IMG/VR virus record: IMGVR_UViG_3300037247_001290 | Span: 1 to 26,848 of that record | Direction: 5' to 3' (one strand) | DNA: 26,848 bases | Source: a virus | Shown here: one piece after another, positions 1-26,848 of the stretch | How positions within the stretch are numbered: the stretch's first letter is position 1 | How the letters are laid out: every line of letters begins with the position of its first letter | Position numbers and translations under genes: made by a program | The notes under the pieces: generated by a model | The model's database searches: none | What the model was told of the DNA's origin: nothing | Seen by the model: the letters and a program-made list of their open reading frames with translations, nothing else

Positions 1-127
1 CGGTCTCTGTAACATATACCCACGCCGCAATACTAAACGGTTTAGTACCTGAGTCATCAAAGCTAAAATTTGCACTATCGTCAACTGTTATATATTTTGA
101 ACCACCAAAATTTAATGCGCCATTTAT
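1..127. repeat. Terminal direct repeat, left copy (circle closure)
   Basis: Positions 1-127 are identical, base for base, to the last 127 bases of the window. The coding frame of the tail gene passes through the join without a stop, and the two halves form one sensible protein. An odd-numbered overlap of 127 is what a de Bruijn assembler leaves when it closes a circle with k=127, so this is most likely an assembly overlap and not a biological terminal repeat. Confidence 0.93.
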
Positions 128-4500: not shown

Positions 4501-6978
4501 AGCCGCGTCTGATCCCTGTGCGTCATTAAGCGCTTGCGCAAGTGCGGCTTCATGGATGGCCCCTTTGCCAGCCTTATTTGAATCTACAAATAATTCTATC
4601 TTATCCATAAACTCATCAAGGGTTGTATCTTGCGGTAAGCCGAGTTCGTCATGTTGTGAATCCCATCGCTTGCCGCCTGTTTCTACCAGGTCGAATTTCT
4701 TTAAGATATCTGGCCTGCCCTCGAATCTGGCTCTTATATCGCCGATTTCTGTACTGTCTACATTAAAAGATCCGCTTAGGTCTGGTAAATCGCCTACCGC
4801 GTCAAGTGCGGCCTGATATGGCCCGCTTTGTGTTATTTGGGTTTGTACCTTTTTGATTTCTGCATTGCGGGTTTTTGGAGTTATGTCAATGTCCGGAAAT
4901 TCGTCAGCATGTTTCAATACAAGTTCGTCCTCGATTTCAGTTAACCGCTTTATCTGCCGTGGAGTTCGTTTTTGGGCCGGTGTGCTGGTGATCGCTTTGC
5001 GCTCGTCCAAAAGCTGTCTGCTGGTTATTGTCGGCGGCTTGGCCGCTTCTGCTGGCTTGGCTGTAGGAGTGGGTTGGATTCGGTCTCTTGGTTGTAGAAA
5101 TTCTTCTGTTAATGGTTGGTTTATGAGTTCGTTAAATTTGTCTGGATTTTCTTTTGCAAATTTATTTCTCCATTTTGCAAAAGCTTCTTGTATCGGTTTG
5201 TCGAGTTTTGCGAAGTGCTGTTGAAGGTCCGCAACCGTAGCTTTGACTGGCGTAGCTTGTAGTCTTGGGTCTACTTTTTTGCCAGGTTCAGCGTCAAGAG
5301 GTACTAAAAAAGCAACTTTTCCGGTTTCTTCGTTCAGGTTAAAAAACATCCCTTTGAATTTCGGCGGAATGAGTTCTTTGAATTTCCCCTCTACGGCCTC
5401 TGGCTTGGCTTCTGCTGCTTTGGGGGCTATAATCGTCGACTCTACGGGAGTTACAGGCTTAGTCGGCTGCGTAGGCTCTAATTCGGCTACTGTGGCGGGT
5501 TCAGGGACTGTCGGTAGAGTCACTGTCGGAGCCTGTTTGCTAACCGAAGACGTAAAAGCCCTTCGCATGGCGTCGTTATTTATCTTGTCGATCTCTACTT
5601 GCGCCGCCTCGGTGTCACCCTTCACCATCAAGTCCAATATCTTGTCGGCTCGTTTCCCGGCAACGCCTTGCTTGACAAGATCAATTTTGACCCCTTGGCG
5701 AAACAGGTCAATCTGCTTGTTAATCTGCGCTTTCCGTTTCTGTGATACAATGCTCCGTCGCCCACTCCGTATATCAAGTACCACATTAGGGCCGGGAAGA
5801 AGAGCCATAGCTTGTGCCGCACCCTTAGTCGTTTCCCAAAGTCTCTGCGAGTTCTCCAGAATAAACTCTTTGACGCTTTCCTGCTGTGTTACATCACTTA
5901 GGCTCCCGGAAATCTTTTCAGCAGTTATCGCTATCATCTCTTGGACGACTTCCTCAAACACCTCCTGTGTCCAAGTCTTGCCGTACTTAATGGCTGCCGC
6001 TTTGACGACATCAATCATCACTGTTGCCGCAAGAGCCTCTGCGTTCTTTCTTCCACCGGGAATGAGTTTTGATACTTGTGAGTGTTCCACTATTGCATAA
6101 GGTATAGCCGCAATACCAGCCACTTGCTTGGCTATTTCAGGGTCATGTCCCTTGTCAATCATATTGGCATACATCGAGCCTGCCCCTTGCTTGTACCAAT
6201 ACACCATGGAGCCAACAGAGAACCCAATCTTGGTTCCTGTCATTGCACCTTTGGAAATCAAACCCGGCTCATCTGCAAGGGTGAGAACTTGCGGCCCTAA
6301 CTGTCCTAACACAAGACCTGCGCCTGCACCAATCAACATGCCTTCAAATGCAGTAGGTACAGCATCCCAATACCCTCTTGCCATGGCGGGTACAATTCTC
6401 GATGAGGCGTAGAATAATTCCGACACCTTATTGCCTTCGATAGGAACGGCCTCTTCAAAAGACTGCAACCTTTTCCTGTGAGCAAGTGCATCTTCCTCAG
6501 AACCCACGCCCTCAAAGACAGCACTGTATATTGCCTGATCGTTGACAGCAGCGGCATCGCCTCTCCTCAACGATTCTATTGACTTTTCAAAGAAACCACC
6601 CTCCATCGGATTTTTGGCGAATCTCTTAGATATCCTCTCCAGTTCGTCGCCATAGATAGCCTTCATCATGGCAGGTTGCATTATCCTCATGGTATCTATG
6701 TCGGCATCGAACATATCAGCCAACAGTATGGCTGAGGACATTCTATCTCTCTCGTCCCGTGGCTTATCGAGGGAATTAAATAGGTCGCCTGCAAGTTCTG
6801 CTTGATCGGTTGGTAGCCAGTCCTCGATAGGTTCACCGAGAACCATACGTTCTATATGTCCAGCAAGAGGAGATGTTATATCTTCCGGCTCTTGGGCTAT
6901 AAGCGAATCAATTCCGCTAACTGCCGAGACTTCGGCCTGCCCTTGTGCTTCGGCTATAAGATCATCTATTGCTGCCAT
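1597..6978 (-). CDS. Very large ejection-type virion protein (1793 aa)
   Basis: This is probably an internal virion protein ejected with the DNA, comparable in size and position to the largest core/ejection proteins of podoviruses (T7 gp16-like role); this is inferred from context, not from a recognised catalytic domain. The N-terminus is helical. Hydrophobic, glycine-rich stretches occur at about residues 213-260 (LIGAGAGLVLGQLG, IGFSVGSMVYW) and 290-300 (AGIAAIPYAIV), and another near the C-terminus (AALVFVNLIVWSTLTSLLW). A proline/threonine-rich linker lies at about 485-540 and long charged helices follow. The C-terminal region (FLYAREQRSPAEQTKLGK, ARDGVDAMSRFVAKVHT) resembles those of large phage polyvalent or internal virion proteins. 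The ATG at 6978 directly abuts the stop of the upstream 508-aa gene, so translation is likely coupled. I see no muramidase motif. Confidence 0.75.
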   Translation of the reverse strand: MAAIDDLIAEAQGQAEVSAVSGIDSLIAQEPEDITSPLAGHIERMVLGEPIEDWLPTDQAELAGDLFNSLDKPRDERDRMSSAILLADMFDADIDTMRIMQPAMMKAIYGDELERISKRFAKNPMEGGFFEKSIESLRRGDAAAVNDQAIYSAVFEGVGSEEDALAHRKRLQSFEEAVPIEGNKVSELFYASSRIVPAMARGYWDAVPTAFEGMLIGAGAGLVLGQLGPQVLTLADEPGLISKGAMTGTKIGFSVGSMVYWYKQGAGSMYANMIDKGHDPEIAKQVAGIAAIPYAIVEHSQVSKLIPGGRKNAEALAATVMIDVVKAAAIKYGKTWTQEVFEEVVQEMIAITAEKISGSLSDVTQQESVKEFILENSQRLWETTKGAAQAMALLPGPNVVLDIRSGRRSIVSQKRKAQINKQIDLFRQGVKIDLVKQGVAGKRADKILDLMVKGDTEAAQVEIDKINNDAMRRAFTSSVSKQAPTVTLPTVPEPATVAELEPTQPTKPVTPVESTIIAPKAAEAKPEAVEGKFKELIPPKFKGMFFNLNEETGKVAFLVPLDAEPGKKVDPRLQATPVKATVADLQQHFAKLDKPIQEAFAKWRNKFAKENPDKFNELINQPLTEEFLQPRDRIQPTPTAKPAEAAKPPTITSRQLLDERKAITSTPAQKRTPRQIKRLTEIEDELVLKHADEFPDIDITPKTRNAEIKKVQTQITQSGPYQAALDAVGDLPDLSGSFNVDSTEIGDIRARFEGRPDILKKFDLVETGGKRWDSQHDELGLPQDTTLDEFMDKIELFVDSNKAGKGAIHEAALAQALNDAQGSDAAFDIELFALKHDMLKNGFTAAEINKEVTRHAEENDVDLADLEADLIPLQEITDVGKKQQILRELDRTIKADKVKKVSDPEKIAIEKAGKIAARTKKPAFVREKDGKFTVTKLEPRKGDFIKITPAAPGKLEGKLERIKGKPKGPPPQTREAKLLIQRINIEQKKKGLTDKDFSDIKLQQGGSRRLTGTKPRTEEQLRAILKAIKRARPKIIGQKKVVKLKTERQIQSLKDNLTNAELMTDEAFDDILAKETGGKLPKYINSKAFITQQEGRNVINRMHDTAEKLRATESFARAIDADSEIALEHDKILEKDEFLGAKSPARLLAMRFFTQRMAERTGEPIYHVWQDLTFTHQVRLRERRKLLNSLEEMENFTVIARSEAALQRVSDFISSQSKLKNAPKSPENITPEEKAIAKRIQEIFKLYEFQARLGKFFEHKENLSQMPQYLRHKKAIDKALDIYDSEGLDPLIEYLKTQPWGIIKSGYEPTESVIRRVSTHRMPDIAIGKAHIKVRDIEYSKQDRNILQRLDSYMRQMDMMSFLQPKIKSLVRATDDVLEKFDEPQKVSAAISTYLDNLKRTNYEDGLVEEVLRKIYSQAITTLILADPIKPARNLLQNAAFAEDRQDFLNPDNKKLSPRDVEYMETFVHQDRVMLSDWAFAGEEPFDLPIIGQKRLGLTTLNKWIQRRTLYPASDRLNRTASFWAKTNRIKRAFSKNITLAEKMKEARFSDMQKPEQQLALGILARDGVDAMSRFVAKVHTDNTHFLYAREQRSPAEQTKLGKMVLNLALFKKAALEKATLQAQKAVKSEGTFEARKRAALVFVNLIVWSTLTSLLWKKITGKKFGAYDFVNFLEFESGGLMQAAVETITDVYNSMLRAAKGDSKALAALTVAIPRAADMFIPYYDLGLRAVEATLGTKNIDRVALRKVREAIDSEYKSRGIEKVNRDLVEKLQFVLAKSKPDEKKKKAQRIE

Positions 6979-8505
6979 TTATTCTCCAAATGCTTCCAAT
7001 ACTTCGTCAAGTGTTTTGTTTAACCGGAAAGCGGTTTTTGCTTTTTCGATGTCTGAGTCACTTAGGGTTTCAAATATTGACTTCTTTTTGAAAGCCTCAA
7101 ACCGCTTGCTTTGTAAAGTGGTTTTTTGTGCGCCAAATATTTTTGGCGTAAATAGCCCTGTAAAGAAACCCAATACCACTTTGTCGGCTGGCATTCTGGT
7201 TAGCGATTGTATCTTTTTTTCCGTTTCCTCGTCGGTGCGGGGTTTTTCTAAAGCCCATTTATCAAATTCATTTTTCATTTCTCCTTTTTCCCGGATCATT
7301 CTACCCTCTTGCTGGACAGAAATGTCCTCTATACCTTTTATACGCGCGTCGAATATTTCCTCGATAGCAGTAATGCCCCTTTTGTGAAATTCTCTTTTGG
7401 TCGGACTGTTATCTGTTGATTTCTCTGCAAGTTTAGTTCTAAGGGCTTTACCCGCTGTGCCGTCAAAATGTACCCCAACCCCTGCCGCGATAGCGTCAAT
7501 GGCAGTTTGTTTTTCTATGTTGCCGAGTGCAACCTGGTCTATCATATCAAATACTTTGTTCCATTCCGCCCAATTCATTGGGGTTTTTGTGCCGATAGAG
7601 TTCCGTAGTCTCTGCTGTTCTGCTTGGTCAAGTGATGATGCTTCAATGGCGCTTACCGCGTCGGGACTGTTGGAGTTTATTAGATCGTAGATTTTATCAC
7701 GTTCGACTTCTTTTTGCTCTTCGACCTTTTCCTTATCACCGGCTTTTTGGGCGTTATTTCTGGCATTGGCAGTTTCGGCAAGGCCTTTGAATATCTTCGG
7801 GTCAATGCCTTCAAGGTTCTCGGCGGTATCCAGCCAATCATTAGTAGCTTGCCAGTCTACTTCGCCGTCCGTCCTTGGAGGTCCAGCCGCCATAGCTTGC
7901 CGCCATAGGTCGGCGCGTGTCCAATCGTCGGTAGCTTTTTCAAGGTCAGAGGCCCCTTGGTTTGGAGTTCTTAATTTATCGTCTACCGCCCCGGCTGTAA
8001 GGCTTGCAGCTTCTTTTGTAAAGGTTTCCTTATCGGCGATCTTAGCAAGGTTTACTATGTTGTTGAAATATGCCTGGCCGTTTTTTACGGCGATCATTTT
8101 GATTTTCTTGGTTGCGTCAATTTTCTCAAGGCTGGCGTTGTTCAAGTCAGACCACGAATTATATTTTGTCGCTCCTGATTTATTCTTGGGCGCAAAACCT
8201 TTTAGGTCTGCTTTGAGTGCTTTGAAAGCTGCATCGTGTTCATTTGAATTATCAAAGTTTGTCCGCTGAAATTCTCCTATGCGATCTTGTGCCAGGCCCC
8301 TGGCTGTGTCATATTGCGAGTTGCCTTCTCGCTCAAACCATTTGAAAACTACGCCGGCGGTTCCGGTTAGTGCTGCTCCGGCCGCTTGTAATGTCTGAGC
8401 CTCAAGCTCTTGCCCGGTTCGGGATAGACCTACCGCATCCGCTCGCGGTAAAGTTTCCGGCTTAAATTGCTCTGTTGCAAAATTGGTTCCGAGTTTATTT
8501 GGCAT
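6979..8505 (-). CDS. Helical internal virion (ejection) protein (508 aa)
   Basis: This protein is almost entirely alpha-helical and charged, with a short alanine/glycine-rich patch near the N-terminus (AAGAALTGTAGVVF, about residues 41-54). Long coiled-coil-like stretches follow (KAGDKEKVEEQKEVERDKI), and there are no cysteine clusters or nuclease motifs. It lies between the gp13-like gene (2-bp gap) and the 1793-aa gene (0-bp gap), matching the T7-like order 13-14/15-16. That position is the main reason for assigning it to the ejection proteins. The sequence itself does not identify a family with certainty. Confidence 0.65.
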   Translation of the reverse strand: MPNKLGTNFATEQFKPETLPRADAVGLSRTGQELEAQTLQAAGAALTGTAGVVFKWFEREGNSQYDTARGLAQDRIGEFQRTNFDNSNEHDAAFKALKADLKGFAPKNKSGATKYNSWSDLNNASLEKIDATKKIKMIAVKNGQAYFNNIVNLAKIADKETFTKEAASLTAGAVDDKLRTPNQGASDLEKATDDWTRADLWRQAMAAGPPRTDGEVDWQATNDWLDTAENLEGIDPKIFKGLAETANARNNAQKAGDKEKVEEQKEVERDKIYDLINSNSPDAVSAIEASSLDQAEQQRLRNSIGTKTPMNWAEWNKVFDMIDQVALGNIEKQTAIDAIAAGVGVHFDGTAGKALRTKLAEKSTDNSPTKREFHKRGITAIEEIFDARIKGIEDISVQQEGRMIREKGEMKNEFDKWALEKPRTDEETEKKIQSLTRMPADKVVLGFFTGLFTPKIFGAQKTTLQSKRFEAFKKKSIFETLSDSDIEKAKTAFRLNKTLDEVLEAFGE

Positions 8506-8507
8506 AG

Positions 8508-8981
8508 TTACGCTCCTATTGAAACGTCCTGTTTATTTTGCTGAATTTCAACTCTGCTATATTGAAAAAGGTCCGTTCCGTCCGATTCGTGATTTCTCAT
8601 TATACCTTCAACCGTAAACCCTAAATACCTCAAATAACTCATTCCAGCCGGGAAGTCACGCCTGCAAGTGACTTGCACTCTGTGATATCCTCGCTGTTTA
8701 ATAATTTCGTTCATTTTATCTCTGACTACTTGAGGATCGATATGGTAACTGCCAATGTCAAGCGAATACATCGCCCACGCGAGGCCGACACCCGGTATAT
8801 AATAATCATGTAGGCCCGCACACCCCAACAATTCACCATCCCAAAAAAAACTAAAGCCTTCGCCGTGTGTCTCGTAACATTGCGCTAAATCGTCGGGGAA
8901 TTGTTGCGGTTTACGCCGCTTTTTACACCGCTCTATCATTTCCTCGCCATCTTCAACTTTGTATTTTTCGATTGATAGCAT
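8508..8981 (-). CDS. T7 gp13-like protein with GNAT acetyltransferase fold (157 aa)
   Basis: The GNAT-like pattern is visible: FFWDGELLGCAGL resembles beta strands 2-3, VTCRRDFPAGMSYLRYLGF resembles the helix and strand 5, and FTVEGIMRNHESDG resembles the common GNAT ending GF..EG..R......D. Phage proteins of this type (DUF2833, T7 gp13) sit between tail and internal virion genes and are needed for infectious virions; whether they acetylate anything is uncertain. The ATG at 8981-8979 is preceded by GGATAATCGGATA. A second, truncated version of this gene start lies at 23471, directly after the tail gene, which is the order expected in podoviruses. The stop is followed closely by the 508-aa gene. 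Confidence 0.7.
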   Translation of the reverse strand: MLSIEKYKVEDGEEMIERCKKRRKPQQFPDDLAQCYETHGEGFSFFWDGELLGCAGLHDYYIPGVGLAWAMYSLDIGSYHIDPQVVRDKMNEIIKQRGYHRVQVTCRRDFPAGMSYLRYLGFTVEGIMRNHESDGTDLFQYSRVEIQQNKQDVSIGA

Positions 8982-8994
8982 TATCCGATTATCC
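8947..8994. repeat. 48-bp repeat at the gp13-like gene start (copy 1)
   Basis: This block is about 90% identical (43 of 48 by my count) to 23437-23484. Read on the minus strand it covers the first 12 codons of the gp13-like gene plus about 15 bases upstream. Those upstream bases, at the other copy, are the last codons of the tail gene (GGATATTCGGATAATG there, GGATAATCGGATAATG here). The homology starts exactly where the 201-aa gene ends, suggesting a recombination junction. Confidence 0.75.
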
Positions 8995-9599
8995 TAAAAA
9001 CAACTATAATTACTTACCGCTATTGTCTGCTGTGGCGACCTGTCCACCTGCCTGATTAGTTCTTTCCACCCGTAATAAGCATAAAGTAAACTTTGCATTG
9101 CGGGACTATCGCCATATTTTACCGCTGCGGGATTTTGGAGTTCCTCGGCTTTTAACCTCAAATTCAAAAGGCTTTCGTCGCTGATCTCAATAGTACCCTT
9201 TTTGCGTTCCCTCCATATTTCCGGCAATAGCAAAAGAAAAGGCCGGTGCTCATCCTGTCCGTATAATATCGCTGAATGACTTACCCCAATTTCATATCCC
9301 TTTGCCGTAACCTCCTTTGAGTTATAACCCGAACCATCTCCAAATATAAAATCGCCGGCGTGCCGATAAGAGCCGCCCCTACAATGAAACTTTGTCATTA
9401 ACCATTTCAACTGCTCGGTAAGTTCAAGGACATCTTGGCTTTCGGCTTCGTCAAGTAGTTTTATACTTCGCTCATTTTTCAGGACTCCAAAGTATGATAC
9501 AAAACCCGGCTGACCTGCCGATGGTAGAGCAAAGCCAACTACAAAAGACCTGTACTTTTTCAACTCCTCAACACTGATCTTGTCTTTTTGTCTATCCAT
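8994..9599 (-). CDS. Unknown terminase-linked protein (201 aa)
   Basis: I do not recognise this protein with confidence. Its ATG overlaps the stop of the large terminase gene (TAATG), so it is translationally coupled to it. The N-terminal half reads as alternating strands and a helix (FVVGFALPSAGQPGFVSYFG, LKNERSIKLLDEAES, VLELTEQLKWLM) followed by HAGDFIFGDGSGYNSKEV. This vaguely recalls an RNase-H-like layout, but I cannot assign catalytic residues. The C-terminal half is helical. It may assist packaging. Its stop falls exactly where a repeat shared with the tail-gene end begins (8994), so the C-terminus could have been altered by a recombination event; I see no proof either way. Confidence 0.6.
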   Translation of the reverse strand: MDRQKDKISVEELKKYRSFVVGFALPSAGQPGFVSYFGVLKNERSIKLLDEAESQDVLELTEQLKWLMTKFHCRGGSYRHAGDFIFGDGSGYNSKEVTAKGYEIGVSHSAILYGQDEHRPFLLLLPEIWRERKKGTIEISDESLLNLRLKAEELQNPAAVKYGDSPAMQSLLYAYYGWKELIRQVDRSPQQTIAVSNYSCF

Positions 9600-10873
9600 T
9601 ATTTTCCCTCTATCCCATAAATCGCATACCGCAACGAATCAATCGTATGATCGTCGATCTTTAGCGGCATATCTTTAGCGTCTGCATTATCGGTTCCCTC
9701 TGCCCACCGATAACCCTGCATCGCACGAATGGTATTCCGGCAAGTATCAAATATATACAGTCTCGGTTTTCCGTCTGGTTGGACTTTCAGGCAAGCTTGA
9801 ACTGATTCTATACCTAAGTTTACATCTTTTCTGGCGGGGGTAGTCATAATGCCTAAAGCGTTTAACTCGGCGCGTCCCTGTGCATCGTGATCGGCCCACG
9901 TCATACGGTATCTATTGCCTTTGCTTATTTGCTTAATACGCTCAGCATGACACCCCAAAAGTTCTCTGGCTTGCTCGTACTCGGCGTAAACATACCACCG
10001 CTGGTCGCCGTCCCTGGCAAGCCATAGACAAGCGAAAGGATTATTAAAGCCAAAGTCTATCGCTCTGAATCGTGACCATTCAGGAGGTATTTCAAACGGC
10101 TTGATAACATGTGTGTCTTTTGTGAAGTCCCTAAAGACCGCTCCAAGGAACGCTGCGAAGTGTCCTTTGATTCTTGTCTCTTTTACGGAATCCGGCCATT
10201 CAGCTATCATCAAGTCAATTTCCGCATCGTCGATATAACCGCCCCGGCTTTTGCGATTGTCCTCAAGGTTTGCATAAAAGACTTCATCGCTCGGCGGTAA
10301 GTTCTTGATCCGTTCCTCAAACCAAGGTTGAAAAACAATCGGTGTCATTGTCTGCGCAGAAAACCCCGACTTGTCTAATAGCCGGGCTTGTATCTCCTGC
10401 CAGATACCTAAAGCGTCGCTTTTACACTGCTCATCGCCGTAGAAAGCGTCGATTGCTCTACCCTGAAAGCTTCTCCGTCCCTGATCGTAGCTTTTCAGTT
10501 CAATGGTATTACCGTTAATCAAGTCGATCTGTTTTGGAATGTTCTCGGCTTTGTTGTGCCATACCACGTTAGCAACCTGGCTTTCGGGTAGGTACTTTAG
10601 GATCTTTTCTTCGTACAGAATCTTGCCGACCAGTGACCAGGTATCAGTCACACACCATATCACGGCGTTCGGAGGCGTCGGTCTATACGGATGGATCCCC
10701 AAAGCAAAAGAGCATAAGTCATAGCCGGTATTACTTTCGGATTTGCCCGACCTGTTTCCGCCAAGTAACCACCTGAACTTTGCAGGGTTCTTGTGAAAAG
10801 CTTTTGGGGCGGGTAGCGGCTTATACGTCAATATAGCCTCGCCCGCTTTGCGAATCGTATCGTTAGTCAGCAT
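9599..10873 (-). CDS. terL: Terminase large subunit (424 aa)
   Basis: This is the ATP-driven DNA packaging motor with a headful or site-specific nuclease. Counting from the ATG at 10873, Walker A is GGNRSGKS at residues 38-45 and Walker B ends at YGDEQ (about 145-149). The nuclease domain has RAIDFGFNNP (Asp near 273), ADHDAQGRAEL (Asp near 328) and KIDDHTIDSLRYAIYG near the C-terminus, giving the expected set of acidic residues. A longer frame starts at 10912 but has no ribosome-binding site and overlaps the small terminase gene by 50 bases. I prefer the inner ATG, which overlaps by 11 bases and has GGGAG upstream. A portal gene would normally follow; here a 201-aa gene follows and no portal is seen. 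Confidence 0.93.
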   Translation of the reverse strand: MLTNDTIRKAGEAILTYKPLPAPKAFHKNPAKFRWLLGGNRSGKSESNTGYDLCSFALGIHPYRPTPPNAVIWCVTDTWSLVGKILYEEKILKYLPESQVANVVWHNKAENIPKQIDLINGNTIELKSYDQGRRSFQGRAIDAFYGDEQCKSDALGIWQEIQARLLDKSGFSAQTMTPIVFQPWFEERIKNLPPSDEVFYANLEDNRKSRGGYIDDAEIDLMIAEWPDSVKETRIKGHFAAFLGAVFRDFTKDTHVIKPFEIPPEWSRFRAIDFGFNNPFACLWLARDGDQRWYVYAEYEQARELLGCHAERIKQISKGNRYRMTWADHDAQGRAELNALGIMTTPARKDVNLGIESVQACLKVQPDGKPRLYIFDTCRNTIRAMQGYRWAEGTDNADAKDMPLKIDDHTIDSLRYAIYGIEGK

Positions 10874-11738
10874 TTCGTTTGAGAATCTCCCTGATGTTTT
10901 CGCATTCTTCATCGCTCATTGGTTTTGCGGTGATTATCGTTACTAATGATTTGCCCTTTTGGGCGTTATCCTCAAGGTAGAAGCCGATATGTTTGCCCAT
11001 TTTCTCGATTGCCCCAAGTTTATCGTGTAGCTTAAATTGGAAGTTTCGTGTTTCGTATTCCCGGTCACCGTCCTTGTTTGATGTTATGTTAATAACCTGC
11101 TTGATCGACTCTATTGCCGCCAACTTACGGCTATCCATCTGGCCGAAGTCCTTACCAATAACATTGCCCTCATCGTCTATCCGTAGATAATCGTCAATGT
11201 TAGAAAACCCTATCTTCTTTAGCTCATCCATTAACATCTCTGCTGTAACGCCACACGCTTCAGATAGTTTGGCTTGAAGGTGGAAAATTCGGCCTACAAC
11301 CTTGATATTTTTAAGTAACTTGCTGCCGTTTTGTTCTGCGGTTGACTGACTTGCTTTTGGATAAGCCTGTTTGTAAGCATCTGCAACTACAAGTTTTACG
11401 ACATACTCTTGGCTGAATCGCTCATGTTTGTTATTCTTTAGTGGTTTGGAGTAGTCTATTGCGTTTTCTGTTTTCTTCTTGGCTTCGACCTTGGATTGGA
11501 GTTGTTTGATTCTTGCCTTAACCTGAGTAAACCTGAGTAAACCTGGTCCGTTTGTTTCGGCTGTTGCCTTAGAGCATTTATACACTTTGAAGTATGCTTT
11601 TGCGGCGTTAGGGTCAATGTTGTACGCTTGACAGAATCGCTCCCTGTGCGGGGTGAGTTTCTTAGCAGCTTTCTTCTTTGTTGCTTTACGTTTAGCCTTC
11701 TTGGGTGCGGCTTTCTTAGCTGTTTTCTTTTTAGTCAT
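10863..11738 (-). CDS. terS: Terminase small subunit with two HTH repeats (291 aa)
   Basis: This is the DNA-recognition subunit for packaging. After a lysine/alanine-rich N-terminal tail (residues 1-27), two similar Terminase_2-type HTH units occur in tandem: LTPHRERFCQAYNIDPNAAK...NGPGLLRFTQVKARI at about 28-80, and HERFSQEYVVKLVVADAYK...NGSKLLKNIKVVGRI at about 104-155. One unit is usual. The C-terminal part (GVTAEMLMDELKKIGFSNIDDYL) matches the region after the HTH in this family. A 12-bp tandem repeat (AACCTGAGTAAACCTGAGTA region, 11521-11544) falls inside the first unit. AAGGGATTTTGAACT precedes the ATG. The gene leads the packaging/virion block. Confidence 0.9.
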   Translation of the reverse strand: MTKKKTAKKAAPKKAKRKATKKKAAKKLTPHRERFCQAYNIDPNAAKAYFKVYKCSKATAETNGPGLLRFTQVKARIKQLQSKVEAKKKTENAIDYSKPLKNNKHERFSQEYVVKLVVADAYKQAYPKASQSTAEQNGSKLLKNIKVVGRIFHLQAKLSEACGVTAEMLMDELKKIGFSNIDDYLRIDDEGNVIGKDFGQMDSRKLAAIESIKQVINITSNKDGDREYETRNFQFKLHDKLGAIEKMGKHIGFYLEDNAQKGKSLVTIITAKPMSDEECENIREILKRNAD

Positions 11739-11741
11739 AGT

Positions 11742-11760
11742 TCAAAATCCCTTGTAACTG
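11742..11760. repeat. 19-bp direct repeat at the small terminase leader
   Basis: TCAAAATCCCTTGTAACTG here matches TCAAAATCCCTTGTAATTG at 12760-12778 with one difference. Both lie just upstream of a minus-strand gene and supply the same AAGGGATTTTGA ribosome-binding context. Together they bracket the second recombinase gene in direct orientation. Confidence 0.7.
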
Positions 11761-11779
11761 TCAATATCAATCTAACAAT

Positions 11780-11797
11780 CGGGCTTGTTTTTGCCCG
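11780..11797. terminator. Possible weak stem-loop after the recombinase gene
   Basis: CGGGC and GCCCG form a 5-bp stem around an 8-base loop, in the 134-base gap between the recombinase stop and the small terminase start. T-rich sequence follows it on the plus strand (GTTCGGTTTTCGTTTTT), not on the coding strand. As a terminator for the minus-strand operon it is weak. Confidence 0.25.
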
Positions 11798-11872
11798 TTC
11801 GGTTTTCGTTTTTACGTTTACCACTATAATTCCTTATAACTCTTTTCTTACTGACGACTTACGATATAGGTG

Positions 11873-12712
11873 TTATGGTATACTATTAGAAGCGATAACA
11901 TCCGTGCCGGTCCCCCCACCAAACATTAACCCATCCATAGCGTCCATCTGCTGTAACTTCTCTTTATTTAAGGTCTTAGCATAAATGCGGGTTGTCTCGA
12001 TTGATGAGTGTCCAAGCTGCTCGGCAACGAAGTTTATATCTTTTTTATAATTATATAATCCAGTGGCAAACGTATGGCGAAGGCAATGACAGTGAAAGTC
12101 TGGATCGCCCAGGATCCTTTTGATTCTATTGGCCCGGTACCGCAGATCATTGTAGGTAAGTGATCGCCCACCTGATTTAGTAAACACCGGCTGCCGGCGT
12201 CCTTTGCCAGCCGTACACCGTTTGAGTATTGCCGCAACGTGCTCACCTATCTTAACGGTTCGCTGCTTGCATCCTTTGCCCCTCAGCACGTTAATCATCC
12301 GCTTACTACAATCGCAGTCAGCAACACGCAGAGAACAAAGCTCAGCGGCCCTCAGGCCAGTACCGACCAGCACATCATAAATATCAAGCAACCCAGGCAA
12401 ACCGCCCAGGGTCAGCCTATCCTGGCTAATCTGGGCGGCTGATCGAAAATCACCTGAATTAAGCTGGGTTTTTTTGACAATCTTCTTTGATGTGCTAACC
12501 TCGCGATATTGCAATAGTTCCTGAACCGTCCTCGCTCTAAACTCTTTGCCATCGGCAGTCAACAAACCCTCGGCGTTGAGTTCCTTTGCAATCTGATGGA
12601 GAGATGTAGGGCCAGCCGCACCTTTGCGCTTGCGGCGCTTCAATACAATCAAGTCCCGTGCCTGTATTCCAGCTTTGCTTTTAGCAAATGTTTTGCGGCC
12701 TGGCCTTGCCAT
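11873..12712 (-). CDS. Tyrosine recombinase with serine-recombinase-like N-terminal HTH (279 aa)
   Basis: The catalytic domain is complete: GTGLRAAEL (Arg121), RGKGCKQRTV (Lys146), HCLRHTFAT (His209, Arg212), LGHSSIETTRIYAKT (His235, Tyr244). The N-terminal 75 residues do not look like the usual SAM-like core-binding domain. They read SLHQIAKELNAEGLLTADGK and ARTVQELLQ, the pattern of the DNA-binding Recombinase domain of large serine recombinases. The ATG at 12712 has GAAAGG seven bases upstream; a TTG start at 12763 is possible but less likely. The gene lies between the replication and packaging blocks and is bracketed by a 19-bp direct repeat. A role in dimer resolution, DNA inversion or a host dif-like reaction is possible; only the recombinase chemistry can be inferred. 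Confidence 0.85.
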   Translation of the reverse strand: MARPGRKTFAKSKAGIQARDLIVLKRRKRKGAAGPTSLHQIAKELNAEGLLTADGKEFRARTVQELLQYREVSTSKKIVKKTQLNSGDFRSAAQISQDRLTLGGLPGLLDIYDVLVGTGLRAAELCSLRVADCDCSKRMINVLRGKGCKQRTVKIGEHVAAILKRCTAGKGRRQPVFTKSGGRSLTYNDLRYRANRIKRILGDPDFHCHCLRHTFATGLYNYKKDINFVAEQLGHSSIETTRIYAKTLNKEKLQQMDAMDGLMFGGGTGTDVIASNSIP

Positions 12713-12759
12713 TATACTACCTTTCAATTGTTCGGTGTAGCGATCACTTCTTTTCTCGC

Positions 12760-12778
12760 TCAAAATCCCTTGTAATTG
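12760..12778. repeat. 19-bp direct repeat at the recombinase leader
   Basis: This is the partner of 11742-11760, 1018 bp away in the same orientation. It may be a duplicated gene leader or a recombination footprint. Its TTGAGC part could serve as an alternative TTG start for the recombinase. Confidence 0.7.
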
Positions 12779-18099: not shown

Positions 18100-18420
18100 T
18101 TAACCTTGTCGGTCGGTATCGTAATCGGCCTGCATAATTTTTGCAACCTTACCAATTACTACCGTCCTTGCGCTATTGGATTCGGCAGTTTGACAGCCCT
18201 TTGCGAATCCCCTGGATAAAGCCGCTGGCTTCGCCTGTGTTGCGTTGAGGGTATAATCTATACGGGCGGCGGGGGCGTTCGTCCACTGGTGAGGACGTGA
18301 GGCGGTATTTACTATGCTCTGGAATATTCGGGCACTCATAGGGCACTCATTTTTTGAAAGCCTCGTTTTCAAGTCGCAACTAAAGGAGATTAACTGTTGT
18401 TGTGTTAATTCCCGTTCCAT
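18100..18420 (-). CDS. Doubtful ORF downstream of the integrase (106 aa)
   Basis: The frame is open and ends 15 bases before the well-supported 60-aa gene. However, its first 27 codons fall on a repeat that is non-coding at 1481, it contains the tandem GAGTGCCC site, and the start at 18420 has no clear ribosome-binding site. An internal ATG at 18339 would give 79 aa (MSARIFQSIVNTASRPHQWT...). No family is recognised. It may be a real small gene built partly over a repeat, or only an open stretch. Confidence 0.3.
   Translation of the reverse strand: MERELTQQQLISFSCDLKTRLSKNECPMSARIFQSIVNTASRPHQWTNAPAARIDYTLNATQAKPAALSRGFAKGCQTAESNSARTVVIGKVAKIMQADYDTDRQG
18330..18348 (-). repeat. Tandem GAGTGCCC site B
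   Basis: The minus strand reads GAGTGCCCTATGAGTGCCC, with an 11-bp period. It lies 149 bp beyond the integrase stop and overlaps the start of dispersed repeat copy 3. Confidence 0.65.
18341..18403. repeat. Dispersed repeat copy 3
   Basis: This copy shares a 22-bp identical block (GGGCACTCATTTTTTGAAAG plus CC), the following GTTTT.AAG and GATTAACTGTTGTT with 1498-1560, in the same orientation. The two sites would split the circle into about 9.9 kb and 16.8 kb. Confidence 0.6.
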
Positions 18421-18496: not shown

Positions 18497-19699
18497 TCAT
18501 GCACGTTTCGGGCACTCATCGGGCACTCCGGTTGTCAAGTCAGGCAGTGCATCGATGATACCCTGCAATGATTTTCTCTCGGTGTGCGTGTAATAGTTCA
18601 TAGTCAGAGTGATCGTGCTATGCCGGGCAAGGGCCATAGCATCGGACGGGTGGACACCTGCCCTTGCCAGATTTGTAATGAAGCTATGCCGCAAGCTATG
18701 AAAATCTGCCGTCCCCTCATCAGTCTTGTACTCTATCCCAGCGGCGGCATGATCTCTTTCGATCATTAAGGATGGGGCACGTCGAACACGAAAAACCTGC
18801 GTATTCGGTAGTTTGTTTGCAACATAGGCTTGGATATCCGCGGCAAGAGGTTGTGGCATTGTCAGAATAGCCGTTTTTTTGTTCTTCGTATAACCCTGCG
18901 TGAGCGTGATCGTCCTGGTCTTAAAGTTAAAGCATGAAACTGTCAGGCTGCGTAATTCGTTGGCTCTCAATCCTGTTTGTAAGGCCGTGCGGTACAACAA
19001 CGCCCTTACCGGTCCCGTCAGGTTGCTATGCTCCGGTTCATTGGCTGTGGCCTCTATAAGCCGGCGTTGTTCGTCGAGCGTCAATGCCCTGCGTTGTCGT
19101 CGTTTCTCTGTTTGAGTAACCCTCTTTAGATGTTCAAGGGGGTTTTTGGCGGTCCTCTTTTCCTCGATCATCCATCGGAAAAATTGTTTTACTGCCCCCA
19201 AATAAGTATTAAACGTACTTTGCCCGATACCGTTATCACCCCGCATATCTGCTAAATGCTTATATACAGCGTGTGCGTCGACGTCCTCAATATCCTCAAA
19301 GTCACATGCTTTAAATATCTTAATCAGTGTTCTTTGCACTTGTGAGGCGTATTTTTCTTTTACGTCAGCCGCCCTCAAAGAATCCGTGAAGTCTGCAATA
19401 TGGGCGGTAAGCAGCTTGTGAGCGTGTTTCGATGTTTCGGGTACATGTTCCTTGCGAATAACCCCAAACGATAACAGCTTGCTCCGTAGTTGCGGATTCA
19501 TACCCTCAATAAATATCTGCAATTCAGGAGTTAAGCTGCCGTTGCAAGCAAGGATCCCATCAATGGCCGCTGCGATCTTTTCCGTAGCTTTCTTGTTGGT
19601 CGATATTGCCATGCGGCGGCGTATGCCATTACTGCAAAAAGTGATATACCAATTTTTGCGGTTCCTGCCGTGGTGATCTTTGGGTTTGTATAGTTTCAT
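18497..19699 (-). CDS. int: Tyrosine integrase, planctomycete type (400 aa)
   Basis: This is a full-length phage integrase for site-specific recombination between attP and attB. The arm-binding N-terminus is basic (YKPKDHHGRNRKNWYITF). The core-binding region ends in YLGAVKQFFRWMIEEKRTAK NPLEHLKR. The catalytic domain has QTGLRANELRSL (Arg245), FHSLRHSFITNLARAG (His334, Arg337), ALARHSTITLTM (His360) and NYYTH (Tyr370). This block pattern is common among Planctomycetota integrases. I start it at ATG 19699, seven bases after AAAAGGA; a TTG frame extends to 19723. It follows the 142-aa gene in the same operon. A candidate attP lies about 1.5 kb upstream. Confidence 0.92.
   Translation of the reverse strand: MKLYKPKDHHGRNRKNWYITFCSNGIRRRMAISTNKKATEKIAAAIDGILACNGSLTPELQIFIEGMNPQLRSKLLSFGVIRKEHVPETSKHAHKLLTAHIADFTDSLRAADVKEKYASQVQRTLIKIFKACDFEDIEDVDAHAVYKHLADMRGDNGIGQSTFNTYLGAVKQFFRWMIEEKRTAKNPLEHLKRVTQTEKRRQRRALTLDEQRRLIEATANEPEHSNLTGPVRALLYRTALQTGLRANELRSLTVSCFNFKTRTITLTQGYTKNKKTAILTMPQPLAADIQAYVANKLPNTQVFRVRRAPSLMIERDHAAAGIEYKTDEGTADFHSLRHSFITNLARAGVHPSDAMALARHSTITLTMNYYTHTERKSLQGIIDALPDLTTGVPDECPKRA
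18510..18528 (-). repeat. Tandem GAGTGCCC site C
   Basis: The minus strand reads GAGTGCCCGATGAGTGCCC, again with an 11-bp period. It lies inside the last codons of the integrase gene (encoding VPDECPKRA), so coding and binding functions may overlap here. Confidence 0.65.
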
Positions 19700-19727
19700 A
19701 ATCTCATCCTTTTCATCAAGCAAAGAC

Positions 19728-21464: not shown

Positions 21465-23159
21465 ATGATGAAAAAGTACACGATTTCTGTAATGATGGTT
21501 CTGATGTCAGTCAATGCAGTGTTAGCCGACATATTTGGCACAGGGGTTAATCAATTCACAATCGACTTTGTGAGTATCACAGGCGACACGAATCCTGCCA
21601 GCGGTTACGGTATTGTCCACAATGACTACCGTATAGGAATCTATGAGATCACTAATGACCAGTGGGATAAGTTCAAAGATTCCTACGGTACAGTAACAGG
21701 TTATCCGCCAGGTGCGTATGATACAAGCTCATACTATACTGGTACAGACATTCCAACCAATAATACTAGCTGGTACGAAGTTGCTCAATTTGTCAACTGG
21801 CTCAATACAAGCACCGGCCATCAGGCGGCATATAAGTTTACTGGCGCACAAGGACAGAATGATTACACTTTTGCTGTGTGGGAATCCGGCGATTCAGGTT
21901 ACAACGCTGCCAATCCCTACCGCAATAGTAATGCGTTTTATTTCCTTCCAACCGAGGACGAATGGGTTAAGGCCGCCTACTGGAACGGCATGAGTCTTCA
22001 AACCTACGCTACTAAGCCGAGTGATACATTGTATCAGGGAAATGGTTCAAATGGCGGCTGGAATTATTACGACGGTGGATATGCCACTGATCCTTATGGC
22101 CCTTGGGATGTGAGCAGTGGTTCAGAGGAACTCAACGGGACGTTCGATATGATGGGTAATGTATGGGAGTTTATGGAAAGTCCATATATTATTGCAAATT
22201 ATTTGCTTGGTTCCAATCGCAGCCTCCGCGGTGGTTCGTACGAATACTTCGGCGGCGGCGAGCCGTATCTCAGGTCGACCACCCGTACCTACGACGGGTC
22301 CCCGGATCTTGAGTACGACTATGTAGGCTTTCGTGTCGCTTCTATCCCTGAATCGACACCACCAATAGCCAATGCAAGCGGCCCTTACTCGGTTTTCGTC
22401 GGCGATACGCTTACGCTGGATGGTAGCGGTTCGACCGATCCTGACGATGATATTGTCTCGTACCTATGGGACATGGATTACGACGATATCTTTGAAACGG
22501 ATGCGGGTGGACAGGCAATTTTTGATGTCAGTTATTCATATTTGCAATCGCTCGGACTTCTTGTTAATTACGAATATGAAATACACTTAAAGGTTACTGA
22601 CAGTCAAGGTCAAAGCGATATCGCTGAGAGTACATGTATAATTATTCCAAAGCCAGCGACTAAGGTTGCTGTTGATATTAAGCCTGGCAGTTGTCCGAAT
22701 CCGGTTAATACTAAAAGTTCCGGTGTGCTGCCAGTGGCTATATTAGGCTCAAATAACCTTGACGTAACTATGATCGATCCTGCCTCTATCCGATTAGCCG
22801 GCGTCGAACCGCTGCGTAGTGGCTACGAAGATGTAGCTGCACCCGCCCCGGATATTACAGATTGTAACTGTATTGAGACTGGCCCGGACGGTTTGCTTGA
22901 TCTCACGTTGAAGTTTGCGACTCAAGCGATTGTAGAAGCTGTTGGCGATGTTGACGACGGCGATATAGTGACACTGGAGCTTACCGGCATTTTATATGAT
23001 CCGATACCCCACGAAATACCTATCGAGGGATCTGATTGTATATTGATTAAAGGTAAATACAAAGCTCATAACAAAGCGGATATAAACAAAGATGATATAG
23101 TCAATGGCTTTGACTTTTTTATTATGGCCTCGGAATGGCTTGCGGACAATACGCTGTAA
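21465..23159 (+). CDS. Secreted FGE/SUMF-like protein with PKD and dockerin-like domains (564 aa)
   Basis: This is the only plus-strand gene. A signal peptide is clear (MMKKYTISVMMVLMSVNAVL ADI). Residues about 30-290 form an FGE-sulfatase (C-type-lectin-like) domain: YRIGIYEITNDQWDKF, FYFLPTEDEWVKAAYW, GTFDMMGNVWEFMES, SLRGGSYEYFGGG, YVGFRVASIP. The two active-site cysteines of formylglycine-generating enzymes near RGGS are absent, so catalysis is unlikely. A PKD domain follows (ANASGPYSVFVGDTLTLDGS, about 300-395). Next is a domain common in planctomycete proteins (VAVDIKPGSCPNPVN, VLPVAILGS, about 402-530), then one dockerin-like repeat (ADINKDDIVNGFDFFIMASE). AGAGG precedes the start. It is probably a cell-surface or secreted cargo protein. 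Confidence 0.85.
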   Translation: MMKKYTISVMMVLMSVNAVLADIFGTGVNQFTIDFVSITGDTNPASGYGIVHNDYRIGIYEITNDQWDKFKDSYGTVTGYPPGAYDTSSYYTGTDIPTNNTSWYEVAQFVNWLNTSTGHQAAYKFTGAQGQNDYTFAVWESGDSGYNAANPYRNSNAFYFLPTEDEWVKAAYWNGMSLQTYATKPSDTLYQGNGSNGGWNYYDGGYATDPYGPWDVSSGSEELNGTFDMMGNVWEFMESPYIIANYLLGSNRSLRGGSYEYFGGGEPYLRSTTRTYDGSPDLEYDYVGFRVASIPESTPPIANASGPYSVFVGDTLTLDGSGSTDPDDDIVSYLWDMDYDDIFETDAGGQAIFDVSYSYLQSLGLLVNYEYEIHLKVTDSQGQSDIAESTCIIIPKPATKVAVDIKPGSCPNPVNTKSSGVLPVAILGSNNLDVTMIDPASIRLAGVEPLRSGYEDVAAPAPDITDCNCIETGPDGLLDLTLKFATQAIVEAVGDVDDGDIVTLELTGILYDPIPHEIPIEGSDCILIKGKYKAHNKADINKDDIVNGFDFFIMASEWLADNTL

Positions 23160-23260: not shown

Positions 23261-23416
23261 CTAAGGCGTACTTTCGCCAAGACGTGTATCGATTTCGTCA
23301 AGACGTTTCTTTTGTGCGGCAAGGTCGGCTTGCAACGCATCTATTTCGGTAGGTTTAACCCTTACCGGTATCACTTCTGTTTTGGTTGACGCTCCGGGAT
23401 TTTCTATATTACGCAT
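23261..23416 (-). CDS. Small coiled-coil protein (51 aa)
   Basis: The ATG at 23416 overlaps the end of the truncated gp13-like frame. The protein begins MRNIENPGASTKTEVIPVRV and ends in a charged heptad-like helix (EIDALQADLAAQKKRLDEID TRL), a likely short coiled coil. It is the last gene of the virion operon, facing the cargo gene. The function is unknown. The frame, overlap and helix pattern favour a real gene, but it is short. Confidence 0.5.
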   Translation of the reverse strand: MRNIENPGASTKTEVIPVRVKPTEIDALQADLAAQKKRLDEIDTRLGESTP

Positions 23417-23471
23417 CGTACAGGAATCCAAATACCCCATCTTCAGCTTTATATTTTTCGATTGTCAGCAT
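23409..23471 (-). pseudogene. Truncated 5' copy of the gp13-like gene
   Basis: The ATG at 23471 overlaps the tail-gene stop (TAATG). The first 12 codons (MLTIEKYKAEDG) match the intact gp13-like protein (MLSIEKYKVEDG) in 10 of 12 residues. The frame then runs into unrelated sequence and stops after 20 aa. This preserves the ancestral gene order tail nozzle, then gp13. Confidence 0.75.
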
Positions 23472-23484
23472 TATCCGAATATCC
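23437..23484. repeat. 48-bp repeat after the tail gene (copy 2)
   Basis: This is the counterpart of 8947-8994. On the minus strand it holds the last codons of the tail gene, the overlapping TAATG, and the first 12 codons of a gp13-like reading frame. After those codons the sequence diverges completely from the intact gene. Confidence 0.75.
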
Positions 23485-26400
23485 CCAATTCTGCGGTAAT
23501 CGATCTTAATGTTAATGGTAGCGGTTGTTCTTGTTTTACGAATATATTCCCTGATAATTCATAACCGCCCGTAAAGGTCTGTTGTTTTTCGCCGGTGAAT
23601 AACGGTACTGCTTCGCCTGCGGGATCGGTTGTTTTTCTGAATGGCACTTGGTCTATTACTTCGGCTCCATCTTCAGTACCGAAAGAACATCCTACGGTAT
23701 CTTTGAAGGAGAATGTTAATTGACTGATCTTCTTTTTCTTGGCGTTTGAAGCCCCGGAGTTCGTTGGGACTATGATTTTCATAGGTTGCAGCTTTGAAGT
23801 GTACTGTAAGCCGATATGGACTTTGTTGTAATAATCTGTGAGTGTTGCTACGCCACTGGTTACTACTACGTCGGCATGTACCGAACCGTCGCCAAGTACC
23901 GATACCGTTTTTCCCTCCAAGTGTCCGAGTCCAGAAAATCTATTGTCTACCTGTTGAGCTGTACCGTCTGAGGTGTAAGCTCCGAATCCTGTACTGTCAA
24001 TGTCTACTTCGTCCAGCTTGTCGCGTAGCGTGAAGTTGGAGGTTGAAGGGCTTTCTACGGTAAATACTTTATTGTTCAGTTCTACCATGCCGCCAACGTC
24101 TACTATCTTGATCTGTTGGCCGTCACTGAAAGTATTCGTAGCGGTCACTACGCAAGGATCGGCGTTTGTAATACCGGTGATCGTCACCGCATCGCCGCCG
24201 TCAAAAGATAGCCCTGAATCCACGAAGAACATATCAGCTATATCATCGCCCCAATCTCTCGGAGTGAAATACTCTATGTTTCGTTTTGTAGCGCCACCAA
24301 TAGTCCGGTTTACTATACACCAGATTTCATCTTCACTAACGCCGGGGCTTACCGCAACATCTTCAAATAGTCCCTCTGTTACTACCCGGAACCATCCCCA
24401 AACTTTCTCCCCTGGCTCGAATGTCATGCCGATCAAGAATCCATTGCCAAGCACACACCATAGGACCGGCGAAGGATTCTGTTGGTACGCCATACTTACT
24501 ATTCCGCTTTCAGTAATATGGTTTGCAAGTGTGGTATAATCGGGCGCATCATATCCTCCAGATTCGCCCTTATCAAATATGTATTGTGCCCCTCTGACAA
24601 CCGTTCCCTCCTGTTGTACGAATAGTACGATATTAGCCAGCATGATCGCTTGTACGTCCTTGCTTCCGTATGTGGTTTGTACTCTCGGTACAGTAGGATT
24701 GTCCGGTGTAAGTGGCTCTCCAGAGTCAAAGGCTCCGAGTTTCCATTCTGCCCCGCTTGTACCCATCAAGAGTACTTCTTTTGAGATCAGCCATCGAATA
24801 GCATTTACTTCGTTGGATGATAATTTGTAAGAAACGCTATCATCGGCAAGCGTTCCGGCCCTGAAGTTGTGCCAGTCATCCGTTTTGCTGCCATTGAGTA
24901 CATTGGGATTATTGTTTGTGCCGCTCAACATCAATCTTTCTTCGTGGAATGTGCCTGCGGATGGATACCCTCTTTCGTCTGACCATGACCCTTCGGACCA
25001 TAACTCCGTAGCTTCGGTAGAACCTATATTCCTTGTAACCGTACCTGTAACCAAGGTCGAACTCGAAAAGCCGGTTATCTTGACAATACCGTAATGATAG
25101 AACCGCTCGCAGGATAGAGTTACGGTCGGGTCAGCACCAGGGGTTTCTGCGATTTTTCTTGCCCTTAAATACGCATCACCTACGATTTCTTCGCCGGGTG
25201 CATTAAAGTTTTGGTCACTTTCCGACTGGAATGTTTCCAATATATGCCAACCTTGGTACCGCGGCCATGAAGTGGCTGTGTCGCGAGCATTACCGGATTG
25301 ATTCGTAAGAATCTCACCGTCAGAGAAACTACCTGATAATTGTTTAATTTTGTAATGCGTAGTATCTATCGCCGTGACTATTACGCAAGTGTTCCCACTT
25401 GTGCCCCCTGTGATAATATCGTCAACCGCCCATGCTCCGCCAGCCGGGGCAGCATCTAAGACTAACTCCAGAATCCCATCATAAGACCGTTCAAGTATTA
25501 CCGTCCCTGCCCATGTATCCGAAGTCCTTAACCGGTAAGAACCTTTTACGTCAACCAGAATATCGGAAACACCCGCAATATTGTAAGAATCAGCCGCATC
25601 GCCTAAGACTATAAGAGTTGCAATCTCAGTGAATTGTTCTTCTATATGATTATCCGTCCGGTTATGTCTTATCAGCCAGCTTGACCCTATATGGTCCGCG
25701 GTAAAGATAGGTGAAGTTGATGCCAGTTCGATAGTGCCTACCGTGCCCGATGGCGTTATTGTGGTAGTGGTTTTGTTCTCGCTCATAAATGCAGGCCAGT
25801 CAAAAACTACGCTGTCGATTTCCCATAGTGCGTGTTCAAACCTTGTTAGTGTTCTTGGGTTGTAGCTTCCATGAAAATTATATAGTAAATCCGCTGATTG
25901 TATTCGCTGGATTCCAAAAAGATCATCTTCGAGATATGAGCTGGTTATCTCGTAGGCCTCTGTGGTGTAGAGGCTTGCTATTTCGGTAGGAGTAAGGACA
26001 TCGCTGAAAAGCGATATTTCGTCAAGTTTATCCCCCCAAAACTTCTCTGCCGCTCCGGCCGCAGACTCTTGCGCCCCTATTCTTACAAGTGCCGCTCCCG
26101 CCTGCATACCGGTATAGCCTGCGTTGTTCGTCCCGGTAGAATTCACAGCTACGCCGTCAACATAAAGGATTATTCCGTCTGCTGCGGTAGCAACTCCTGG
26201 GCTTGAGTAAGTTGCGCCTAAGAAATGCCAACCGGTCGTAATAGCGTCGTCAGAAATCGCAGATACCACCTCATCGGCCATAACTTCTTTGCCATCGCCT
26301 GAGTTATATAGACCCAACACATCCCCTTCCGTCAGTACTTTGTCAAATAAAACTACATTATCAATTTTATCCGCCCAAAAATCATCAAGGGAACCGCCGG

Positions 26401-26848
26401 TATATTTCGCACCAATTGCCACCTTAGTTGTAGTGTCCTCCATTGCCACGTAAGAAACATTATTGGTGGCCGTAGAGGCAACGGCAACACTATCAACATA
26501 CAGAGTTATCCCTGTAGCGGCAGTGGCCCCACCACTACTGTCATAAGTTACTACTACGAAATGCCAACCGGTCGCTAACGCACTGTCACTACGGCGAAAT
26601 ACACTAATACCGACGCTTTTGTCATGTAACCACAATTCGATTTCCCCGGAAGATCTGACATCAAAAATCCATTCTCTATTATCTGGTGTGTCCCATTTTG
26701 AGAGAATTATTTGATCGCCAACGGTCTCTGTAACATATACCCACGCCGCAATACTAAACGGTTTAGTACCTGAGTCATCAAAGCTAAAATTTGCACTATC
26801 GTCAACTGTTATATATTTTGAACCACCAAAATTTAATGCGCCATTTAT
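23471..26848 (-). CDS. Podovirus nozzle-like tail protein with LamG domains, C-terminal part
   Basis: This continues the gene that starts at 1192. Residue 427 of the whole protein lies at 26635, and the stop TAA is at 23473-23471. The second LamG-like domain ends near residue 543 (LTEGDVLGLYN). The second half of the first LamG domain then resumes (TTGWHFLGATY to LTPTEIASLYT, about 544-650). After that the nozzle family pattern returns (SSYLEDDLFGIQ, QSADLLY, RTLTRFEHALWEI, FTADHIGSSWLI). A small beta module (VTITGITNADP, FSDGQQIKI, ELNNKVFTV) sits near the C-terminus. The stop overlaps the ATG of a truncated gp13-like reading frame (TAATG). The 127 bases at 26722-26848 repeat positions 1-127. 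Confidence 0.85.
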   Translation of the reverse strand: MNGALNFGGSKYITVDDSANFSFDDSGTKPFSIAAWVYVTETVGDQIILSKWDTPDNREWIFDVRSSGEIELWLHDKSVGISVFRRSDSALATGWHFVVVTYDSSGGATAATGITLYVDSVAVASTATNNVSYVAMEDTTTKVAIGAKYTGGSLDDFWADKIDNVVLFDKVLTEGDVLGLYNSGDGKEVMADEVVSAISDDAITTGWHFLGATYSSPGVATAADGIILYVDGVAVNSTGTNNAGYTGMQAGAALVRIGAQESAAGAAEKFWGDKLDEISLFSDVLTPTEIASLYTTEAYEITSSYLEDDLFGIQRIQSADLLYNFHGSYNPRTLTRFEHALWEIDSVVFDWPAFMSENKTTTTITPSGTVGTIELASTSPIFTADHIGSSWLIRHNRTDNHIEEQFTEIATLIVLGDAADSYNIAGVSDILVDVKGSYRLRTSDTWAGTVILERSYDGILELVLDAAPAGGAWAVDDIITGGTSGNTCVIVTAIDTTHYKIKQLSGSFSDGEILTNQSGNARDTATSWPRYQGWHILETFQSESDQNFNAPGEEIVGDAYLRARKIAETPGADPTVTLSCERFYHYGIVKITGFSSSTLVTGTVTRNIGSTEATELWSEGSWSDERGYPSAGTFHEERLMLSGTNNNPNVLNGSKTDDWHNFRAGTLADDSVSYKLSSNEVNAIRWLISKEVLLMGTSGAEWKLGAFDSGEPLTPDNPTVPRVQTTYGSKDVQAIMLANIVLFVQQEGTVVRGAQYIFDKGESGGYDAPDYTTLANHITESGIVSMAYQQNPSPVLWCVLGNGFLIGMTFEPGEKVWGWFRVVTEGLFEDVAVSPGVSEDEIWCIVNRTIGGATKRNIEYFTPRDWGDDIADMFFVDSGLSFDGGDAVTITGITNADPCVVTATNTFSDGQQIKIVDVGGMVELNNKVFTVESPSTSNFTLRDKLDEVDIDSTGFGAYTSDGTAQQVDNRFSGLGHLEGKTVSVLGDGSVHADVVVTSGVATLTDYYNKVHIGLQYTSKLQPMKIIVPTNSGASNAKKKKISQLTFSFKDTVGCSFGTEDGAEVIDQVPFRKTTDPAGEAVPLFTGEKQQTFTGGYELSGNIFVKQEQPLPLTLRSITAELGIFG
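26722..26848. repeat. Terminal direct repeat, right copy (circle closure)
   Basis: This is the same 127 bases as the start of the window. Removing one copy gives a 26,721-bp circle. The copy lies inside the coding sequence for the second LamG-like domain of the tail protein. That domain has a diverged paralogue nearby (around positions 630-790), but the paralogue is far from identical and should not have caused a false join. Confidence 0.93.

Follow-up and report, generated by a model that had tools for sequence, protein, structure and literature searches.

A nozzle gene across the contig junction

The window, that is, the whole stretch of 26,848 nucleotides analysed here, carries a long gene on the minus strand that leaves the record at one end and re-enters it at the other. 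An end-to-end comparison of the record showed that bases 1-127 are identical to bases 26722-26848. Identical contig ends of assembly k-mer length are the usual signature of a circular contig, and 127 bp is a typical k-mer. The gene spans the contig junction, running from 1192 to 1 and then from 26721 to 23471, and its in-frame join gives 1480 codons and one stop, with no internal stops. Coordinates 23471-26721 hold residues 398-1480 only, the remaining residues being encoded at 1192-1 on the minus strand, and residue 398 straddles the junction. The joined protein matches the PHROG 376 (tail protein) profile over residues 1-1476 (E 3.3e-186). Judged by its sequence, the product belongs to the tail nozzle proteins (PHROG 376, tail tubular protein B type), and its carrier is a short-tailed phage or an element resembling one. 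We name its outer LamG domain A (A1, residues ~109-231, plus A2, ~544-655) and its inner LamG domain B (~238-543). The features are as follows:

899-1192, minus strand: nozzle core, N-terminal part (residues 1-98); nozzle N-terminus HMM, 161.7 bits; 75-76% identity with L003 and L113
500-868, minus strand: outer LamG A, first half A1 (residues 109-231); h1 HMM, 175 bits; alignment with the uninterrupted L113 LamG
1-481, minus strand: inner LamG B, first part (residues 238-397), running on over the junction; h1 HMM and Pfam Laminin_G_3
185-421, minus strand: small insert inside B (residues ~258-336); aligned with L114; no known family
26285-26721, minus strand: inner LamG B, second part (residues 399-543); h2 HMM, 163 bits; Laminin_G_3 at 362-532
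25949-26284, minus strand: outer LamG A, second half A2 (residues 544-655); h2 HMM, 163 bits; Laminin_G_3 75-151, E 2e-8
23474-25948, minus strand: nozzle core, resumed (residues 656-1480); PHROG 376; 63-68% identity with L113 and L003; homologue model resembling the Carin1 nozzle 8ck1, Z 25.3
23945-24190, minus strand: E1_FCCH-like domain at a second, C-terminal insertion site (residues 1242-1323); Pfam PF16190, E 9e-8; nozzle-derived profile, 101 bits
23409-23471, minus strand: 20-codon remnant of the start of an acetyltransferase gene, overlapping the nozzle stop codon; 48-bp, 90% repeat with 8947-8994
26722-26848, no strand: closing assembly overlap, an exact duplicate of bases 1-127

HMMs built for LamG half-domains give the order N-terminal core, h1, h1, h2, h2, core. 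The limits are 1-98 for the N-terminal core, 109-231 (175 bits) and 328-433 (156 bits) for the first halves, 439-543 and 551-654 (163 bits each) for the second halves, and 651-722 for the segment POST; the domain boundaries proposed in an earlier note on this DNA agree with them to within a few residues. B covers positions 1-150 of Pfam Laminin_G_3 (PF13385) and A2 separately covers 75-151, with scores of 78 bits for B alone and 34.9 bits for A2 against a curated cut-off of 27.6; in the same Pfam profile search A1 alone had no Laminin_G_3 match. The extra segment within B, also noticed earlier, is real. It comprises about 80 residues, has a homologous segment only in L114 among the aligned relatives and matches no Pfam family above cut-off. 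The possibility that it is a copy of the E1_FCCH domain, whose Pfam match in this protein lies at residues 1258-1322, was rejected: the segment scored 2.9-4.4 bits with the nozzle-derived FCCH profile, hhalign gave a probability of 1%, and Pfam E1_FCCH did not match. Two other nozzle ORFs (L096, residues 1157-1374; L115, residues 774-998) carry a LamG in the C-terminal part, probably near the E1_FCCH site of the window.

Since the closing overlap, of k-mer length, falls inside B, and the gene content of the contig is unusual, the architecture could in principle have arisen where contig ends within a repeated LamG were wrongly joined. This is highly improbable, because the two pieces align in register with one set of nozzle relatives, L114 aligns to each of them across the junction, and L003, L114 and other loci encode this architecture without a break.

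The closed 26.7-kb circle encodes small and large terminase subunits, an acetyltransferase-like protein, replication genes and two integrases, the two integrase genes (11873-12763 and 18497-19723) lying in one small element. Profile and similarity searches gave no recognisable match to portal, capsid or adaptor genes in the circle; the 48-49 kb contigs of L113 and L003 carry the adaptor. For two proteins of the circle, of 1793 and 508 aa, a pattern scan found no relatives, but tblastn against the collected loci found some; both have counterparts encoded downstream of the nozzle gene in relatives. The order in those relatives is nozzle, acetyltransferase, internal virion proteins, whereas in the window the nozzle and acetyltransferase genes are separated. 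Reciprocal scars mark the two places: the start of the acetyltransferase gene follows the nozzle (23409-23484), and the last codons of the nozzle stand before the intact acetyltransferase gene (8947-8994). These scars suggest that the nozzle gene once directly preceded the acetyltransferase gene.

Possible readings of the circle are a satellite, a phage with deletions and a genome of unusual make-up. That it is a satellite with a terminase, ejection proteins and its own LamG nozzle, lacking portal, capsid and adaptor and bearing scars of its derivation from a full phage, is in our view doubtful; if true, the satellite would dress a helper capsid with its own host-choosing tail tip. Two fragments (L199 and L200) have a terminase, a protein of ~240 aa and internal-virion-type proteins with no portal between, which may be compared with window positions 1597-12763. 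Elsewhere in the window, the product of a host-like gene at 21465-23159 (plus strand, opposite to most genes) begins like a signal peptide and contains FGE-sulfatase and PKD domains; this gene hints, through resemblance only, at a Planctomycetota-type host. Repeated intergenic boxes (1207-1244, 1473-1510, 1498-1530 and 18341-18373) occur upstream of the nozzle start and near an integrase gene.

The insertion site in related nozzles

Further nested loci, drawn from several metagenomes, came to light when IMG/VR was scanned with the nozzle and insert alignments. The order A1-[B]-A2 recurs in at least 16 other loci, among them L003, where a contiguous 1477-aa ORF has the same domain order without the small insert in B and reaches 72% identity with the window protein in the best segment of the nozzle C-terminal part. 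Another nested nozzle (L138) comes from a bacterial genome bin. Among 123 nozzle homologues, 57 have nothing at the site, 37 have an E1_FCCH-like domain there and 17 a nested LamG, and the remainder have another segment (six), a single LamG (four) or a different nesting (two).

An uninterrupted single LamG occupies this site in six loci (L113, L116, L118, L119, L120 and L122), of which L116 and L122 are short ORFs additional to the four singles among the 123 nozzles, and A1 and A2 are homologous to this uninterrupted domain. By its core sequence, L113 is among the window's two nearest relatives. The global alignment of L113 with the window places part of the L113 second half on B and not on A2, so that the hairpin is ambiguous in this pairwise comparison. 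Two ORFs differ in their nesting: in L139 another loop of the first LamG half holds a complete but different LamG-like segment (residues 171-620), and L126 has an insert (residues 121-513) in the second half with a weak F5/8 type C match, possibly a domain. The nozzle LamG therefore seems to accept independent insertions at several loops. Searches of annotated phage genomes for a LamG-nozzle gave no match at 1e-5, and we found no description of nested LamG domains in nozzles in the open-access literature.

In 20 of 39 LamG-bearing nozzle ORFs and in 1 of 82 LamG-free ones, the nozzle core is immediately preceded by a Sec-type signal peptide; these counts include redundant loci and were made by a simple hydrophobicity rule. 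The LamG nozzles concerned include L010:4938, L103:~5695, L104:5704, L106:5695, L109:5716, L118 and L120; such a peptide also occurs in a LamG-free nozzle from Phycisphaerae (L145) and in some neighbouring genes. It is absent from the window nozzle.

In place of the junction-crossing window protein, AlphaFold models were made of relatives, namely the L114 insert and residues 1-1200 of L106. Over A1, B and A2 the pLDDT is mostly 75-94 in both models; it is low in the small insert of L114 and in parts of the L106 core. The L106 model matches the Carin1 nozzle (8ck1_A; Z 25.3, 455 aligned residues, rmsd 8.0) and the LME-1 nozzle (9efk_M; Z 20.0). A fold search with B returned domain 4 of AbnA (Z 19.5-19.8) and other jelly rolls, and in the search with the outer domain the match list was filled by B, leaving A with no match of its own. 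Many of the fold matches are clostridial neurotoxin binding domains, with which only a common jelly-roll fold is shared and nothing is implied on toxicity. Homology and model confidence together suggest that A1 and A2 may pack as one domain in mutual contact. Three domains in a row, or the lack of a jelly roll, would have spoken against nesting; neither was obtained in the models of relatives, in which the A1-A2 contact itself is a deduction.

Ancestry and exchange of the LamG cassette

The outer A domains and most of the single LamGs (S) fall in one clade (96/89 with 22 rows; 94/87 with 24 rows), the single LamG of L119 lying outside it. In both halves S is nearer to A than to B (45.6 vs 41.2; 43.8 vs 40.5). 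The two outer halves also co-vary with each other (0.75) more than with the inner second half (0.61), a modest contrast whose jackknife range reaches -0.04. The B domains form at least two groups, seven of them lying beside LamGs of other sites and other genes and not beside A. A single origin of all B domains was rejected in the AU test (p 0.011; p 0.019 without L103). The clade and the AU results speak for a descent of A from the single form and for more than one insertion or replacement of B. The HMM order, the uninterrupted relatives, the clustering of the outer halves and the predicted folds of relatives all bear out the view, first put forward in the earlier note, that one LamG is interrupted by a second within a nozzle protein; we consider it very probable that this nested architecture exists and that it originated by insertion.

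The same note had suggested that such domains could change quickly by duplication, which the data for the most part do not support. If one LamG had been duplicated locally in each lineage, B would be a recent paralogue of the A in its own protein. Over 18 proteins, mean A/B identity in the two halves is the same within a protein (38.4 and 36.5%) as across proteins (38.3 and 37.6%), seven B domains group away from A, and a plain tandem copy would give h1-h2-h1-h2, not h1-h1-h2-h2. What speaks for duplication is that A and B of the window share 46-48% identity in their halves, more than the mean, and that the B of L103 sits among A and S domains in the tree. Local copying in some lineages (the window and L103) is possible, whereas a duplication in every lineage is improbable. 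Repeated insertion or replacement of B, with exchange of the cassette between phages, fits better, L103 being a possible exception.

Such exchange is indicated by the disparity between cores and inserts. In its core (N-terminal/resumed part) the window protein is 75/68% identical to L003 and 76/63% identical to L113, but its insert shares only 50% (A) and 39% (B) with that of L003. The best match of the window A is found in L104 (62%), the core of which is only 46/39% identical, and the best match of B is in L114 (54%), with a core only 54/39% identical; the insert tree and the core tree are likewise discordant. On these identities and trees, the LamG cassette appears to move between nozzle genes.

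Possible function and comparison with known nozzles

The explanation that we favour, and think probable overall, is a nozzle with an exchangeable nested LamG cassette that is a candidate receptor- or glycan-binding module. One loop after the N-terminal core serves as an insertion site. The LamG jelly roll A would have been acquired there first, a complete LamG B would later have entered a beta-hairpin loop of A, and in this virus B would then have gained its own small insert. The hexameric nozzle has a narrow DNA channel, for which six copies of ~540 residues are too large, so the cassette is expected to face outward; the six copies would project around the tail, with nesting placing B farther outward than A.

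The cassette may bind cell-surface glycans or other receptors and so help to set host range, a role suggested by its fold, its variability and its exchange. The scanned ORFs of the window included no recognisable tail-fibre or spike gene, which makes the nozzle cassette the obvious receptor-binding candidate in the element. We regard the chances for and against this binding role as evenly balanced. LamG domains can also be structural, and the fold is common in phage proteins; the cassette might instead stabilize or protect the tail, act as a spacer or contact tail fibres, binding no host receptor. We think such a purely structural or protective role possible and the less probable of the two, because exchange among distant cores and the many site alleles better suit a fast-changing part that interacts with the host. 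The nozzle site resembles an exchangeable docking point, with a possible part in the choice of the bacteria that are infected.

A beta-sandwich split by another of its own kind, with empty, single and nested forms in nature, preserves the successive steps of domain nesting, which is rare. Should the cassette bind receptors, then the nozzle, usually seen as a conserved piece of the channel, would prove to be a host-range locus that annotation pipelines overlook, a role that could be tested in laboratory phages by means of the single-LamG, nested and empty forms.

Among known systems, the PHROG 376 nozzles of Carin1 (8ck1) and LME-1 (orf18, 9efk) have the N- and C-terminal core and the core fold predicted for a homologue in common with the window protein. 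However, where the 8ck1 site seems to be short, the window protein has a nested LamG of ~540 residues. In nozzles of Pelagibacter phage and other podoviruses (such as Lederberg and HTVC010P), E1_FCCH-like domains occupy the same insertion site as a single domain of ~78 aa, where the window has a nested LamG. B and A2 match Laminin_G_3, a ConA-like jelly roll, and a jelly roll is predicted, but the A of the window is discontinuous, split by another LamG. Finally, the predicted fold of B resembles, over ~194 residues, domain 4 of AbnA (5hon, 5ho2), the jelly roll of a GH43 arabinanase, at ~15% identity, a likeness of fold that does not imply the same ligand.
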